A DNA stretch of 64,000 bases. Source: Pneumocystis sp. 'macacae'. Taxonomy: Eukaryota; Ascomycota; Pneumocystomycetes; Pneumocystales; Pneumocystaceae. The translations under genes and the position numbers were made by a program. The notes beneath the pieces are model-generated. The model was not told the origin of the DNA, made no database searches, and saw only the letters and a program-made list of their open reading frames with translations. Positions 13,443-28,137 of the stretch are shown one piece after another (the first letter of the stretch is position 1; every line of letters begins with the position of its first letter). The stretch spans positions 67,685-131,684 of the forward strand of contig CM030723.1 of the NCBI GenBank assembly GCA_018127085.1, in the 5' to 3' direction.

Positions 13443-15264
13443 AGAAATTGTTTTTTTATTTAAATAGATGATATTTTTGGACTATAAGTTTATATTATTT
13501 TAAATAGCTGTCTTATATATTTATTTTATATTTTCATACTCTAATCATATATAGTAAATGGAATTTTAAGATTAACGATAAAATTACTTTTTAAATTTTG
13601 AGATTTATATTAAAGTGGTCTTGTTTTTTTAAATTGTTTTTTGGTCAGTGTAAAATGAGTAGTTAGTTATATTATATAGGATATTGAAATATATTTCTTT
13701 TTATTTCTATATTATGTATCATTTTAATATTATTTTTATATAGTGTATATTTTTTGAAGTTTATGATTATTTTTAAAAGTATTGTAAGAATTGTTTAAAG
13801 TAATTTCTAAATAATTTAGAAATTTTTTTTTATATATAGAATAATATAATGAAACAATAATTCTTTTATTTTTAAAATTTTTATATAATAATAAATTTAT
13901 AATTATTTCAAGTATAGATAAATAATTTTTATTATTTAAAGATAAAATGTATTGATTTTATAAATAAATTATAAATTTATAAACTAGTATTTATAATTTT
14001 TTTCTATATATTGAAAAAAATTATTGACATTACTTTATATTTATAATTATTATGATTTATATGAACTTATGAATATTTTAAAAAAGATTTGTAATATTTT
14101 AGAATATGTGTATTAAAATATAGTATGAAAAAATAATTTAAGATTTTTAAAGTATTTTAAAAATTTTTTTATAAAATCATAAAATAATATATTTAACTTG
14201 TAGAAAATATCTTTAGTTGTTTTTTATGTGAATTAAGTTGTTTTATTTAATTTAAAGAGTATTTTTTGTTTAAAATTAAATAAGTTTTTTAATGATTTTA
14301 TTACTTTGTTTAAGAATATGATTTATAGATATAAATGATTTATGATAGTTTTTTTAAAAAATGATTTAATGTGTTTTTAAATAGTTTGAAGTTAATAATA
14401 AATAACACTAATGATAACATACTTACGAGAAACTTCTTTTATATTTTTATGATATTATTTATTATTTATCGATTTATTACAGAATAATTATTAAATATTA
14501 TTTCTTATAGTATGGAATTTATGAAAATATATTACTATGTAATTTTTGATTTTTATATTGTTTTGATAGAATTTTAGATTATTTTTAAACATATATCCAC
14601 GTATTATTTATTAATATTTTATTTTATTGTTTTGAAAAAATTATATTTATTATAATTTTTTAGTATTTAAATCTTTTAAGTTTAATAATACATATTAGTA
14701 AAATCATAATATTTTTTATTTAATGTAGAATGAAAAGTATAAACATTTTATTTTTTAAGTTTAAATATATTTGAATTCGAAATGGTCTACAAGAAATGGG
14801 ATATTTAGTAAACATTTCTAATAATTAAATAATTATAATTCAATTGTAGTTTTGTGTTAAGGATTTTTATATATTTTAAAATCTATATATTATACTCTTT
14901 GAATTAATGAAAGTTAACATTTTAATATCATTATTTAAGATTGTTGTTATTTATTATTAATCCATATTTATTCTAAAATATTTAGCTTTAATAATATGTT
15001 TTTATGGATTAGTTTTATTTTAGAAAAAAATCTTTTTATTTATTGTATATTTTTTACTACATTTATTTTTGTTTATAATATAAATTTTATGTTTTACACG
15101 CTAAGATTTAATGATTTTAATTTATCTTGTTTATATTTTTCTAACATTGTAAGGTAATAGATGTATTTATTCTTTTGATTAATGACTGGAAGAATAGTAA
15201 TAAATTTTGATAATTATAAAGTTGGACATAATATTTTTATTTGAAGTATCAAAAACATTGAAAA
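13443..15264. other. 1.8-kb gene-free, extremely AT-rich stretch
   Basis: Lies between the divergent starts of the DysF gene and mbf1. One counted 60-base line (13861-13920) has 4 G/C bases. No reading frame above background, no tRNA-like fold and no tandem repeat were seen. It could be a replication origin or simply promoter and spacer DNA. Confidence 0.7.
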
Positions 15265-21491: not shown

Positions 21492-23756
21492 TTTGTGAAG
21501 TTTTTGATCAAAGACATCTGAAACTGTGGACAAATTGTGATTATTCCTTTTGTATATAATATTTCTAGTGAGATTGTTGAGGTATCTGTTATTTTTTTAT
21601 ATTACTTATTTTTTTCTTTTTAAATATACCTTGGAAAAACTCTGGGCTGGGTTATTGAGGAACAAAATAAATACGAAAAGAATGAATTAGATACTTTAAT
21701 CATATAATTTTTTTGAATTCCAGGTCAAATTATTTTTTTTATTATAGAAAATGTTTTAAATTTTTAAGATCGTTGATTGATCATTGCCGATTTATCTTTT
21801 GTTTTTCAATAACTATTTATTGTATTTATTTTTTTTTGTAAATATATTTGCAAATATATTTTGATTCTAGATTTTAAATATTTATTGTTCAAAGAATTTT
21901 ACTTAATTTTGTTTTTTTTTATAAAATTATTTAAAATATTTTGTAACATAATTTATTTATTTGATGATAAGGTATTTTTATGTTAGTTTTTTAATGATTT
22001 TTAACTTTATTTTTTTACAAATTTTAATATTTTATATAATTTTTAATCTTTGGACATAATGTATCATTCATTGGTAAGTTGTTTTCGTAGTATTCTTATC
22101 ATTTATGAATTTAAAATGGGTAAATATCTATATATATATACATATATGTAGATATCGAGATAAAAATGTATTTATAGATCATGACAATAACTTATTGTAT
22201 TTTTTTATTATAATTAATAAGGATTATTTTTAGTTAAGTTTTTAAAGTATTAGAATTTATAAAAGCTTTAAAGCCAATTTTGCTTAGAAAAAAAGATAAA
22301 ATGATATAATTTTTATTGAAAACTATAGAAATGTTGCATTTTTGAATTGTAGGATTTGGATTAATTGATTATGTTTTTAAATTATGCCTTTTTTCAAATT
22401 TGTAAATGAGTGATTTTATTTTAATTAAAAATATTTTATTAAAAATGGGAAAATACTCGGAAAACATAAAAGTTTGTACCTATATATGCTATCATAAATT
22501 TTTATTTTCTAATATTCCATAATCACTTTTTTACAAAATGTCCTTAAGTGCCTTTTATTATTTGAATTATTATATTATTTAAGTTTCGAAAAAATAATTT
22601 ATAGATATTTTTAATAATACATTCATGGTTTCTTCTTCAGTTTTTAGTGTATCTAGTTGATAATACTTTTTTATAATGAATACAATAATAATATTACAAT
22701 TGAAAATATTTTGGAAATAAAACTTATTATGGATTTGTAGGTATTTGAAAGAGATAAAACATGTTTTTAATTGCTTTTATAGTAATATATGTGATTGAGG
22801 TCCATGTCTGTGTTAATTTCATCAATGGAGATTGTTTATGGTATAGTTTCGTAAAACTGTTTTTTCTTTAGCAATTTTCTTGAAAAAATATAACAGAAAA
22901 TTCACAAACTTATATAAATTATATGTCTGAATTCTTTAATTTACAAGCTCGATGAAATATGATCAAATGTTCTTATTTTATTTGTAGATATTGTTGTGTT
23001 ATTCTTTTCAGAAATAAATACAAAATTATCTGTTAAAATATATGATTTTTGTTTTGAGAAGTGTTTTCTGTCTTTATATAATCTATAATCATTTCTCTAC
23101 AAATTTATTGCAGGAAATTACTAAACAAGTATTAGAGAACCAAAAACGTTACTATCAATAAAACTATTTTTTTTAAATATTTTTACTAATTATACCCAGC
23201 AATTGAAAAATTATTGATATAAATGAATATAGTTTAAACTTTAAAATAGTGAATTGAGGTTTTAAAAAATATTTAGTGGGATGTTAAAACGTACTTCTTT
23301 TTGTGTTCGAATTAAAGTTAAATGTTTAAAGGAAAAATGTCCGAAAACCTGAAGCTTTTGTATCAAATAGCATTTTTATACATTTTTTTCAATAGTTCAT
23401 GAAAGTATGTTTTTAAGTCCCAATTCGAATACAAAGATTTTTTTAAATACTACTTTTCATTAATAGTTAAATTTTCTGCTATTATAAAAAGTGTTTTTTC
23501 TATTTCAAATCACATTAATTCAAAATAGTTATAAATATTAGAATATATGAAGCATTTCTCATTAACGCTTTTATGCATAAAAATGATTTTTTCTCTTCTA
23601 GAGTCCTTTTATTTTATAAAAATAGACATCATATAATGTTTTTTTTCTCAAAACACTATACTCCTTTTTTCTCGCTGATCTTTCTCGATACATTTTCCAT
23701 TTTGATCTGATCCTAATAATAGCTTAATGCTGTTCCCAATTCCATATAGATGACAT
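21492..23756. other. 2.3-kb gene-free AT-rich stretch
   Basis: The longest gap in the window, between the uL22m 5' end and the cyclin L stop. No frame, RNA gene or tandem repeat is supported. Composition is very AT-rich up to about 23.65 kb, then changes abruptly to GC-richer DNA at the cyclin L 3' end. Confidence 0.7.
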
Positions 23757-24656
23757 CTAAGCCCCATCTAGATGCTCTTTGACAGAAACTTCCGCTAAAT
23801 ATTCCTCCAACTCATCCAGCTCAATCGGCGTTCTTCTTTCTTGCTCATGTTTCTTCCTTTCTTTTTCCTCTATATAAAATGACTTAACACATGTTGCTAT
23901 ATATATTATATCCTCCTCATCCACATCAAAGACTTGCCACCACCTGTCTGGAAACCTGATTCCAGCCTCGTTCGCTGCTACATAGATACATCCTACTGCA
24001 ATGCACGCAGCTGGTTCTACACACGGAACTATTGTGCACATTGTATCATTAATATACGACCATACTTTCTGTGCAATTTCTTTTTCCTCCGCCAACCCTA
24101 GTATCTGAAGATATTGCATTGCCTGTCCATACGGCAACTCTACATACGTATCAAACCCTAGGGATGACAACAGTCTTATCTCTGCTACCAAAATTTTTTC
24201 TTTCTCCATATATAGCACCTGACTCTGTCAAAATCGTTCTTTTTATTGCTATGTTTACTTCTTCCGTCAATGATTCTGCCTTTTCGCCCCTCCTAGTCCC
24301 TACTAGTGTCCAAAACACACCCACAATGTCCCGGATTTTTGCCGGCCGCTCTGTAATCTTCGATGCAAGAAAAATAGCTCCCATTGCTATTTCTACTACT
24401 GAGAATTTCCTCAATGACTCTACATAGTAAAACCGCTGCAGCAGCACCTGTGCTGTCACCGTGCATGTGATGTGTCTGCTACTCTTAGCACTGTTTCAAC
24501 GCTGCTTTCTTACAGCCCAAGAGCCACTCCTGCTTGTCGGATCAGTTCTGTTCCTGCGCGCCGCATCCTCCCTTCTAGCTGCCGCGGGATGCCTGAGACT
24601 TGCGACGGAGTTTCCGTTGCTTGCTGCACGTTGACCCGTGCATTGTTACGTCGCAT
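23757..24656 (-). CDS. lcp1: cyclin L (Cdk11 partner cyclin)
   Basis: Regulatory subunit of Cdk11-type kinases in transcription and splicing control. Three exons. Exon 1 starts at 24656 (MRRNNARVNVQQATETPSQV) and reaches RAGTELIRQAGVALGL; a 5' intron ending in GCAG gives HITCTVTAQVLLQRFYY with the same spacing as animal cyclin L. Exon 2 continues AMGAIFLASKITERPAKIRD and VVGVF-like residues; a 40-base intron joins SLTEE to VLYMEKEKILVAEIRLLSSL. Exon 3 has the second cyclin fold (WSYINDTMCT, AACIAVGCIYVAANEAGIR, DVDEEDIIYIA). About 270 residues. It lacks the Arg/Ser-rich tail of animal cyclin L and ends in an acidic/charged stretch. Its 5' half is up to 62% GC, unlike nearly everything else here. 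Confidence 0.88.
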
Positions 24657-24806
24657 TTGCTTGTACTTCTATATTGTTGTTGTTTGTACTGTTTTTTGTT
24701 TCTTTTTGCTTCTCAATCAGTTTATATTTTATACATTACTTATGCACACACCTTCATGTGCTTTAAGTTCGTGCTTATAAGTGTATATTTTCTTCCTTTC
24801 GCGTTT

Positions 24807-24886
24807 GCCCTTATAGTTTAGTGGCTATAACATCTCACTCGTATGTTGGGATGAGAAGGTCCTGTGTTCGACTCGCAGTGGGGGCA
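24807..24886 (+). tRNA. tRNA-Thr(CGT) with a 7-base intron
   Basis: Folds as a full cloverleaf: seven-pair acceptor stem GCCCTTA/TGGGGGC with two G-T pairs, D arm GTTT...TAAC, anticodon stem TCTCA/TGAGA, variable loop AGGTC, T stem CTGTG/CGCAG with loop TTCGACT, and discriminator A. The anticodon loop is 14 bases. Removing seven (24844-24850, starting right after base 37 as nuclear tRNA introns do) leaves CTCGTAA with anticodon CGT at 24840-24842. The internal B box GTTCGACTC is good. A run of five T follows within a few bases, a Pol III terminator. The amino acid is assigned from the anticodon only. Confidence 0.88.
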
Positions 24887-24888
24887 TT

Positions 24889-24895
24889 CGTTTTT
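24889..24895 (+). terminator. Pol III oligo-T terminator of the tRNA
   Basis: A run of five T begins a few bases after the tRNA discriminator base, the standard distance for RNA polymerase III termination. Confidence 0.6.
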
Positions 24896-25097
24896 CTTAT
24901 ACTGTTAATCACGTGTGTTTTATCACGTGATACGACAGCATGTGCTGCTAGGAAACGGGAGTCTATAGTGCACAGATGCAGATGATGCCAGATATAGACT
25001 TTATTTTCCTCGTTTTTTTGCGTGCATGCTGCTCTTATGTACTGTCTGTCTTTTTTCTTTCTCTGTCTGCTTCAGCCTTAATCTTGATAACAGTTTG

Positions 25098-25740
25098 CCC
25101 TAGCCCTAACCCTATATTCGCAAGTGGAGAAATTGGTTTGACCCTAATCTTGGTCCATCATATCTAGGTTTAGTTATCTTAGGGTAACATGTAATCCTAA
25201 CCCTTACTTATCAGAGTCCCTAGTTGATGAATAGCGCTTAAGTCTAACGTGGCTAATGTGTACATATAACAATGTGCATAAATTGCATGGTTTGACACTG
25301 GGTTTTCAGTGCAGGTTTGACTCTATTCAATCTGTGTTTGGGCATGTAATACACATTTGATGCGTGTCTGCCTTAATACGTGTCATAACATGCTTATCAC
25401 GTATTTGGTTGGAACATGACTTGTACTCTCGATGTAGATTCCTCGTTACTCTGTTACCCGGTTATGTTAGGGTTAGGGGTTGTAATGGATTGGTGTGAAT
25501 GTATTAAGGTTAGGGTTGAGAGTTGATGCGCGGTGGTCTATATTGGTTGCGGGTCAGATCTGTGTCTATATTGTTAAGGTTGGGTTGTGAATAGCTTACT
25601 CATGTTTCCGAGCATTGTGTTTTGTATTGAATATATATAATTTGCATTCTGTGTGTTTTGGTTCCTGATTCACAGATTAATATGTTATAACAGCATCTGT
25701 GTTTGTTAGGGTTTGGTCTTTATTATGGATAAGGGTTAGG
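25098..25740. repeat. scattered telomere-like TTAGGG/CCCTAA motifs
   Basis: On the left side the C-rich orientation occurs (CCCTAGCCCTAACCCTA at 25098-25114, ACCCTAA at 25140-25147, CCTAACCC near 25197-25204). On the right the G-rich orientation occurs (TTAGGGTTAGGGG at 25467-25479, GGTTAGGGTT near 25508-25517, TTAGGGTTT near 25706-25714, AAGGGTTAGG at 25731-25740). They are degenerate, interspersed with unique DNA, and switch strand around 25.2-25.45 kb, with one TTAGGG already at 25179. They fill the spacer between the tRNA and tah18, and the last ones lie just upstream of the tah18 start. Confidence 0.75.
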
Positions 25741-25782
25741 TCTGGATATCTGTTGGTTGCCATGACACCATATCAATGGAGA

Positions 25783-28137
25783 ATGGGACGACGACTATTG
25801 GTGATCTTTGGGAGTGAAACAGGGACTGCAGAGGATGTAGCAGTAAGTTTTGCGCGTAGTGCGCGGCGACGACTTTTTGAGACGCACGTTTGTGCAGGAG
25901 AAGATGTTATTCTTGATGGTGAGTTGGTGTATGTACGCATTGCTGCTTTAGTGTTGTCTCTAGGGGACTTCTAGTTTCTATAAGGAGCGTGTTCTTATAG
26001 TGTGTTTATGCAGTTGTACCAATGCAATTATAGTATATTTGCATGATTGTAGTGTGTTTTTGTTGTTTATGATACGTTCGGAGCATATTTATACTATCTA
26101 ATGTTTGTATAGCATTTGTGCTGTTTTTTGAGGGTTTGTAGTATATTTTGGGTGTTTGTAGTTTTAGAATGCAGTCATATGCAGTGTAGCGTATCATAGT
26201 GGATTTGTGCTGATAGTATAGAGTTGCTGGAGCCACTGGTTGTAGTCTTTGTCTGCTCAACGACGGGTGATGGTGAGATGCCGGAAAACATGCGGCCGTT
26301 GTGGCGATTTTTTCTGCGTGCAGATCTACCTGCAGATCTATTTTCAAAGATGCAATTTTGTGTGTTTGGTATCGGAAGTAGACAATATGTAAAGTGTGTT
26401 GAGATTCAGCTTGTACTTGCATTTGTTGGGCTTATAATGTCTTGGCAGATACAATTGGTCTGGAAAGAAGTTACAGCGACGGCTAGAGCAGTTGGGTGCT
26501 TGTGAAATTCATGTTCGGGGGGAGGCTGATGAGCAGGATGTGGAAGGGTAAATAGTGAGACTATTGGATCTGGCTGAATAGGGAAGTGTATGGGGAGCAT
26601 TGATGCGCTGGTCAGAACCTCTTTGGACCATTCTTGAGGAAAAATATCCACTTCCAGTAGGGTATAGAGTGTATGCAGATGATGTACTTTTGCCAGCATC
26701 GTTTTCTGTGTTGTTAAATAAGCCAAAAACAGTAGAAATAGAATTAGAAGAGACTAGGGAGAAAGTGGAAGTAAAGGGGAAGATTAAGGCAAAAGTGTTA
26801 GAGAATGTGCGTATCACTGCGAAAGATCACTGGCAGGATGTACGGCATGTTGTGTTAGGTGTCGATAGGTCAGTGAAGTATCGTTCGGGAGATCGGGTAA
26901 TACTGTACCCAAGAAACCCAGAAAAGGAGGTATGCACATTATTGGAATATATGGGATGGGCGGAAATAGCGGATATACCATTGTATATAGTTTCGAAGGA
27001 GCGTGGAAAGCCTGGAGTTCCGTCTAATGCAAGTTTGCGGTATCTTTTTACGAATGTGTTTGACTTTTTGTCGGTTCCTCGACAGTCATTTTTTGAGTTT
27101 TTGGTCTATTTTACAGATAATCAAGAGTTTGCTGAGAAAATGCGTTATTTTTGTGTAGCAGATGGTCAGGAGGATTTATATAGTTATGTTAATTGGCCAA
27201 GGAGGACAATTTTGGAAGTTATTCAGGATTTTTATCCACTAAATATTCCATTGGATTATATATTTGATGTATTTCCTGTTATACGTGGTCGAAAATTTTC
27301 AATTACGAGTAGTCCAATGGTATATACCTGAGTATTTATTTAACTTTTCTATATTTTTAGGTCAATCCCGGCCAAATTCATTTATGTATAGCAATTGTTA
27401 AGTATAAAACCGTTTTGAGAGAATTTAGATATGGTGTTTGTACAAGATGGGTGTCTGTTCTTTCGAAAGGTATTTTGTTGTTTAGTTCTGGATTATATTA
27501 AAGTTTAGGTGTTGAAATAGAAATAGATTTTTCTCCAGGTACCTTAAAAAAGGCAGAATCGTGCATGGTTCCTGTTGTTATGGTGGGGCCAGGAACGGGT
27601 GTTTCACCGTTACGTTCTTTGATTCAAGAACGTATTTTTGAAGGATGTAAAGGTTGGATTTTTTGTCATTATTTTTTATATTAAGTTTATGAAGATAATA
27701 TTTTATTTTTTGGATGTCGATTTGAACATAAGGATTTCTTGTTTAAAGACGAATGGATGGAACATTGTAATAATGGAAATTTGGTTTTGTTTACTGCATT
27801 TTCAAGAGATCAGGTATTTATATTGAATTATATTATAGAGAATAATAAAATATAGAATAAAAAAAGATATGTTCAGCATATTATGGAAGAGCATTCTAAG
27901 ATTGTATATGATTATTTATATAATAAACGAGGAATTTTGTATTTATCTGGGTATTTTAAAAGAAAAAAGAAATTAATTAATTCTGTATTTAGAAATTCAC
28001 GTTTTATGCCGGAGGCAGTTAAACAAGCTTTTCTTAACATTTTGATAAAAGAAGGAAACTTTACTATCGAGAAATCTAAGGCGTATCTTTTGGAAATGGA
28101 GAAAGGAGGTCGATATATGCAAGAAACATGGTCATAA
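25783..28137 (+). CDS. tah18: NADPH-dependent diflavin oxidoreductase Tah18
   Basis: Passes electrons from NADPH via FAD and FMN to Dre2 in cytosolic iron-sulfur protein assembly. Flavodoxin domain: [71 protein letters not shown] domain: [33 protein letters not shown] then [14 protein letters not shown] domain: [40 protein letters not shown] and the terminal [10 protein letters not shown]. The start could be 25762 (seven residues more); 25783 fits relatives better. The first intron (25919-26221) is 303 bases with a strong GTGAGT donor, while later introns are 39-60 bases. Base composition falls from about 52% GC (26281-26340) to about 18% (27901-27960) within this one gene. Confidence 0.93.

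Follow-up and report, generated by a model that had tools for sequence, protein, structure and literature searches.

A GC-rich island at the TAH18 locus of Pneumocystis sp. 'macacae' as a putative recombination hotspot with GC-biased repair

Recombination hotspots of the mouse reportedly (Smagulova 2011) carry a nucleotide skew that switches polarity at their centre, and break repair leaves interstitial telomeric sequences, short chromosome-internal arrays of exact or degenerate TTAGGG. In yeast, a tract model of GC-biased gene conversion describes a peak of guanine plus cytosine (GC) near the inferred break zone, falling into genes and affecting GC at third codon positions (GC3) (PMC3020949). 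Lineage-specific blocks of extreme GC in gerbils have been ascribed to recombination, and nonsynonymous substitution is raised there too (PMC7403616). In Pneumocystis, the centromeres of P. murina and P. carinii are kilobase regions over active genes, one per chromosome, with on average 3.9% lower GC (PMC10327204). Here we describe a 3.4-kb GC-rich island at the TAH18 locus of the macaque lung fungus Pneumocystis sp. 'macacae' (P. macacae), found in a stretch of 64,000 nucleotides ('the window') on contig CM030723.1 (positions 67,685 to 131,684; C4 below) of assembly GCA_018127085.1.

The island resembles each of these systems in part. With yeast it shares the GC peak near an inferred break zone, the fall into genes and the effect on GC3; however, the islands of this genome form plateaus of 2.7-5.4 kb, to which exponential decay fits worse. 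The gerbil clusters are megabase-scale, whereas the P. macacae islands are kilobase-scale, lie in an 8.3-Mb genome and come with a skew flip and telomere-like repeats. The likeness to mouse hotspots lies in the sign change at the centre, the polarity itself being outside the comparison, and the Pneumocystis hotspots are inferred rather than mapped. The repeats differ from other interstitial telomeric arrays in that they flank island centres and point mostly outward. A centromere was considered and rejected: the island, with 42% vs 27% GC, departs in the opposite direction to the lower-GC centromeres published for Pneumocystis, and four such islands lie on C4 1-260 kb alone. A term-based literature search retrieved no publication joining Pneumocystis, GC-rich, gene conversion and hotspot.

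The explanation that fits best, and which we regard as probable on sequence evidence, is an old, long-lived putative meiotic double-strand-break hotspot with GC-biased repair. Because biased conversion acts only on heterozygous DNA, the islands would preserve a legible trace of outcrossing and of recombination sites in a genus that is not reliably culturable (PMC10327204), and they bear on whether P. macacae outcrosses. If this is true, the drive overrides selection on conserved proteins (UTP15, TTI1 and TAH18), and gene models and phylogenies of island genes are possibly distorted. The joint signature of plateau, flip and outward telomere-like repeats could also help hotspot mapping in other uncultured fungi.

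Extent and composition of the island

The initial annotation reported a sharp GC island crossing gene and intergenic borders, and this island is real. A plateau fit places it at about 42% GC (Table 1), against a window mean of 27.3%. The top 3-kb stretch overlapping it reaches 42.2% GC vs at most 34.5% anywhere else in the window, and the top 1-kb stretch 44.1% vs a maximum of 37.4% in the rest. All four 60-base counts given by the annotation were reproduced (61.7% at 24541-24600, 51.7% at 26281-26340, 18.3% at 27901-27960 and 6.7% at 13861-13920).

Coding, intron and spacer DNA are all GC-raised at the island. As had been claimed, TAH18 changes composition along its length, from 45-51% GC in exons 1-3 and 35-42% in introns 1-3 to 27-28% in exons 7-8 and 12-24% in introns 4-7. 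The spacer between the tRNA gene and TAH18 has 39.3% GC, compared with 20.7% and 16.1% in spacers outside; the short spacer between the cyclin-like gene and the tRNA gene has 30.0% only. From left to right, the island holds a cyclin-like gene (minus strand), the tRNA gene, the spacer and TAH18 (plus strand) from its start into exon 4. The annotation was right about the tRNA and the spacer; its 'facing halves' of two genes do not hold, since nearly all of the cyclin-like gene is covered. A boundary that ignores gene limits is likewise true of one side: the right edge falls within TAH18 exon 4 and is not tied to any gene limit, whereas the left edge coincides with the stop of the cyclin-like gene (23758).

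Ordinary CpG islands or selection on codon usage might be invoked, as some islands are GC-high near gene starts. We find this scarcely credible. The observed/expected ratio of CpG dinucleotides is not enriched (0.74 at the TAH18 locus vs 0.76 in background; 0.64-0.87 over nine islands, this one and eight described below), GC recomputed without CpG is still 0.37-0.57 in the nine, and introns and spacers are raised as well. Furthermore, GC3 shifts inside one gene: where an island border cuts TTI1, it runs 0.78, 0.78, 0.77, 0.47, 0.36, 0.19, 0.15 along one open frame.

A composition that differs from the rest of the window, together with telomere-like repeats, could also arise from foreign or misassembled DNA or from an old telomere fusion. 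Yet TAH18, UTP15 and TTI1 all have their top named relatives within Pneumocystis (TAH18 is closest to PMAC_002175, a protein of P. macacae itself, and five of its seven best relatives are named Pneumocystis proteins), the open frame crosses the TTI1 island border, related patterns occur in the sister species P. jirovecii, and the repeat polarity is opposite to that of a head-to-head fusion. We therefore give this origin next to no weight. Horizontal transfer, which the annotation argued against, and misassembly both fit badly with the Pneumocystis relatives of TAH18, with its intact introns and with a composition gradient in the same gene of P. jirovecii.

Related islands, skew flip and telomere-like repeats

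The island at the TAH18 locus belongs to a class spread across the genome and is a weak example of it. The assembly holds 8.27 Mb in 19 contigs. On C4, a scan over 1-260 kb, which set aside a 0.8-kb stretch and those with raised GC at 6-22.9 kb, yields four islands, the TAH18 locus and three others. Runs of 12 G/C bases have 988 start positions in the genome and are clustered among the matches listed; a rough count (two patterns plus three added run-list entries) gives 47 interior clusters on 15 contigs. This count drops 16 matches, at eight contig-end places with one repeated 12-mer, and leaves out two places near the C2 end; at least two of the 47 clusters depend on that contig-end 12-mer. 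Five sampled clusters, drawn from among the matches listed with one single-match place left out, are islands of 58-64% GC. The eight islands besides the TAH18 locus have 47-64% GC and are 2.7-5.4 kb wide, and two further islands were partly read. Fitted plateau levels range from 42 to 70% GC over a 26% GC background. Among 20 frames checked in the eight islands, Pfam identifies ordinary conserved genes (ArsA-type ATPase, the WD40 protein UTP15, TTI1, chorismate synthase, a LAG1/CSL-type factor, TBP, squalene synthase, PRPP synthetase, DnaJ, histone H3, Pil1, Shr3 and AMP deaminase); a frame read as H4 matches the histone fold only weakly, and for three of the 20 there is no match.

In all nine islands C prevails over G in the left half (GC skew -0.13 to -0.52) and G over C in the right half (+0.17 to +0.41), and the same flip is present in both of two further islands predicted beforehand, giving 11/11 overall. 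None of 1900 overlapping background windows on C4 flips as strongly. The skew of A and T has no consistent pattern across islands.

Replication origins offer one reading of a minus-to-plus flip at the centre of 11/11 islands: bidirectional forks would leave C-rich DNA on the left and G-rich DNA on the right, with G-rich repeats near initiation zones. Similar skew flips are known at bacterial and some animal origins. In four C4 islands with long flanks, however, the strong minus-to-plus pattern does not reach beyond some 2-3 kb from the centre, which is not a replication distance, and it is not obvious why origins should bring about 65% GC or an amino-acid drive in one lineage; we regard them as a very unlikely cause. 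R-loop-forming bidirectional promoters, in which G-rich non-template strands lead away from a common promoter region, would suit the TAH18-locus island, which sits between divergent genes with its fitted centre in the spacer. We nonetheless hold them to be highly improbable, because coding strands are C-rich where the flip opposes gene direction: TBP (plus strand) has a skew of -0.37, and the plus-strand skew is +0.41 at Shr3 (minus strand) and +0.07 and +0.40 at two AMP deaminase pieces (minus strand). The flip is also seen where the recognised genes of an island share one direction. Gene orientations beyond the window were judged partly by eye. Divergent promoters as a general rule were rejected: five of nine islands are divergent near the middle by eye, yet several fitted centres lie inside genes. 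Rejected, too, were tRNA genes as the cause, since in a test of 20 of the 40 genomic tRNAs 2/20 flanks had at least 40% GC vs 6% of background (p 0.34). On C4 1-260 kb, both Rfam tRNAs lie inside islands, and ARAGORN reports one extra tRNA without Rfam support.

Telomere-like repeats mark the same islands. A search for the GGGTTAGGG 9-mer with at most one mismatch finds 72 in the nine islands, vs a mean of 9.5 when their bases are shuffled; controls hold 4 in 207 kb of background and 1 in 50 kb of tRNA flanks. Six of the nine islands are crowded with them (TAH18 locus 6, C4i1 15, C4i3 11, L022 11, L024 13, L026 15), the others being C4i4 (0), L023 (0) and L025 (1). Outward orientation holds for 64 of the 72, and seven of the eight exceptions form a single group near the fitted centre of C4i1. 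At the TAH18 locus, a single TTAGGG hexamer left of the centre (25179) runs contrary to the outward rule. The exact telomere dimer has 28 interior matches at 25 sites. Of these sites, 16 have a GC-run cluster no more than 2.5 kb away, the surroundings of such clusters amounting to 3.1% of the genome (p about 1e-18); among the other nine, one is the TAH18 locus and two were read and are islands. Those two came from a prediction set beforehand, namely that dimer sites without a known GC cluster are islands with the centre on the side given by repeat polarity. It was borne out at both sites read (of five named), with 53-69% GC over 3 kb and the flip on the expected side. Orientation of 15-mers was taken from 100 of 251 matches; 38 of the matches listed are near clusters, and 31 of these point outward. 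Among the matches listed, C12:293255-295487 has 15-mers on the plus and then the minus strand, the reverse of the usual island order.

Sister species and a possible mechanism

Sister-species comparisons rest on proteins throughout. Judged by protein composition, the TAH18 island would be stronger in P. jirovecii than in P. macacae. At residues 143-300, GARP and R/(R+K) are 0.39 and 0.94 in P. jirovecii (0.15 and 0.27 at the protein end), 0.24 and 0.46 in P. macacae and 0.14 and 0.33 in P. carinii; P. carinii, P. canis and two other relatives span 0.14-0.18 and 0.33-0.58, and P. oryctolagi, with 84 residues only, has 0.23 and 1.00. At the protein end, GARP is 0.14-0.17 in all Pneumocystis rows. 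The initial annotation proposed a comparison with related species; in protein composition, P. jirovecii TAH18 falls from 0.39 to 0.15 in GARP. In TTI1, the first two 150-column blocks give 0.43 and 0.37 in P. macacae, 0.32 and 0.14 in P. jirovecii, 0.11-0.21 in P. oryctolagi, P. canis (part) and two rodent species, and 0.26 and 0.21 in another relative. For UTP15, P. macacae has a GARP of 0.33 and an R/(R+K) of 0.79, P. jirovecii 0.25 and 0.46, P. oryctolagi and P. canis 0.22 and 0.41-0.44, and S. pombe 0.26 and 0.50. The composition signal thus recurs in both primate species, which split about 62 million years ago (PMC7940399), with a strength that varies per gene and lineage.

Changes assigned to branches were scored at the amino-acid level by averaging GC over the first and second codon positions and are given as GC-up:down. 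On the P. macacae branch, UTP15 (counted in our own frame, the public model being fused to other sequence) has 56:12 (p 6e-8), and TTI1 has 30:4 in its island part, residues 1-480 (p 6e-6), and 10:4 beyond; the P. jirovecii branch has 5:4 in UTP15 and 8:8 and 8:5 in the two parts of TTI1. For TAH18 on the P. jirovecii branch, the count, restricted to residues 143-300 and excluding a stretch in which the public model seems to be in the wrong frame, is 10:1 (p 0.012). Changes common to both primate species are 9:3 in TAH18 143-300, 16:6 in UTP15 and 10:1 and 5:2 in TTI1. With a local-identity filter the direction stays the same (TAH18 9:1, UTP15 49:6, TTI1 28:3). Within island portions of genes, GC-raising replacement is one-sided on one lineage at a time. 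From these sequences, the P. macacae TAH18 hotspot looks weakened, and that of P. jirovecii looks to have been strongly active after the species split.

A local bias of mutation or repair that involves no biased conversion, in which new mutations in break-prone or differently repaired DNA favour G and C, would produce the same coding and noncoding GC gain, the lineage specificity and, through strand asymmetry from repair synthesis, the flip; outcrossing is not required. It is unlikely in our judgement. The counts of 30:4 and 56:12 in genus-conserved proteins imply a bias sufficiently strong to work against selection, which transmission drive explains more easily, although this is not decisive.

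In a hotspot with GC-biased repair, breaks would be meiotic and made by a Spo11-type enzyme; a Spo11-type TP6A_N domain is found on C12 (E 4e-13). Gene-conversion repair favouring G and C alleles, with tracts of about 1.7-2 kb per side, would by repetition build a 3-4 kb raised-GC plateau over the spacer, the tRNA and parts of two genes, the gain arising from biased repair and not from biased mutation. Two invading 3' ends would leave the central break and extend outward past it, each on the strand with an excess of G here, whose outward reading is TTAGGG, and skew and repeat polarity may record this extension. Telomerase acting on a plain central break end would give the opposite polarity, so the skew and repeats fit strand-exchange extension.

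The long-standing hotspot proposed by the initial annotation is the best explanation found, with the flip and the outward repeats as independent support; the flat-topped profile and the P. macacae copy, which looks faded, sit less well with it. Several observations count against a hotspot of this kind. An exponential tract model is worse than a plateau in 9/9 islands, and a saturated or fixed-length tract could be the source of the plateau shape. Three of the nine islands (C4i4, L023 and L025) have zero or one 9-mer, seven of the 38 15-mers near clusters point inward by the cluster-midpoint proxy, and fitted centres are not consistently promoter-located, that of the TAH18 locus lying in a spacer and others within genes. 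In TAH18, the P. macacae branch, at 0:2 in residues 143-300 and 2:7 beyond, has no recent GC gain, the P. jirovecii branch gains GC beyond the island as well (11:4), which leaves a weak contrast, and GARP of the first block is 0.27 in P. macacae vs 0.27 in P. canis and 0.28 in another relative (the block is unusable for P. jirovecii, with 62 residues partly out of frame). Finally, Pneumocystis is thought to be primarily homothallic, its outcrossing frequency being unsettled (PMC9426428), and conversion needs heterozygosity. A broader picture, of dozens of persistent meiotic hotspots with 3-5 kb GC plateaus, a C-to-G flip at the break zone, telomeric repeats put on outward-extending 3' ends in the course of strand exchange, telomerase on recombination intermediates and, in fungi supposed to be self-fertile, outcrossing common enough for biased conversion to reshape conserved proteins, is tentative and, taken whole, rather doubtful.

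Genes at the locus and minor observations

Table 1. Features of the TAH18 locus (window positions) and further islands on C4 (contig positions)
Feature	Position	Strand	Basis or remark
GC island	23745..27142	none	plateau fit; fitted centre 25443 +- 129
Cyclin-like gene	23758..24656	-	own gene model; exons 24656-24514, 24478-24259, 24224-23758
tRNA gene, long anticodon loop	24807..24886	+	Rfam RF00005, 50.3 bits
Spacer with telomere-like repeats	25098..25741	none	repeat search
CCCTAA-type 9-mers	25098, 25104, 25195		left of island centre
Island centre	25443	none	plateau fit; GC skew -0.16 in left half, +0.39 in right half
Exact TTAGGGTTAGGG	25467		spacer at TAH18 locus
TTAGGG-type 9-mers	25470, 25507, 25733		right of island centre
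TAH18 / NADPH-dependent diflavin reductase, 607 amino acids	25762..28137	+	gene model, homologs, Pfam
TAH18 exons	25762-25918, 26222-26393, 26449-26547, 26587-27319, 27361-27469, 27509-27652, 27686-27813, 27856-28137	+	own gene model
C4 island	47.7-51.7 kb		56.5% GC
C4 island	232.8-237.2 kb		57% GC
C4 island	248.2-252.4 kb		47% GC

The cyclin-like gene has a Pfam Cyclin_N match (E 3.3e-9), and the tRNA gene appears to encode tRNA-Thr(CGU) and to hold an intron some 7 nt long. A telomerase RNA in the spacer was considered and dropped, the tRNA being the sole Rfam match even at E up to 1. Intron 1 of TAH18 (25919-26221 in our own model) has 303 bases, the other introns of the gene 33-55. The public model PMAC_002175 departs from ours at several exon borders (26394-26448, 27320-27360), and the P. 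jirovecii TAH18 model T551_02580 is without a flavodoxin domain; gene prediction may have failed on the GC-rich exons. An in-frame telomeric insertion in UTP15 was considered and withdrawn: a short GT...AG intron may hold the repeat, and the one in TTI1 is a variable linker.

Elsewhere on C4, near the contig end, C4:6022-22883 (L002-L004) has stretches of 41-45% GC in which C exceeds G; this is perhaps surface-antigen gene territory. C4:38675-39509 (L005) is short, with 41% GC and a CpG observed/expected of just 0.16, unlike the islands. The G/C 12-mer repeated at eight contig-end places (e.g. C3:314, C8:480292, C10:472869, C13:6517, C16:10601 and C16:338691) suggests a shared subtelomeric repeat.

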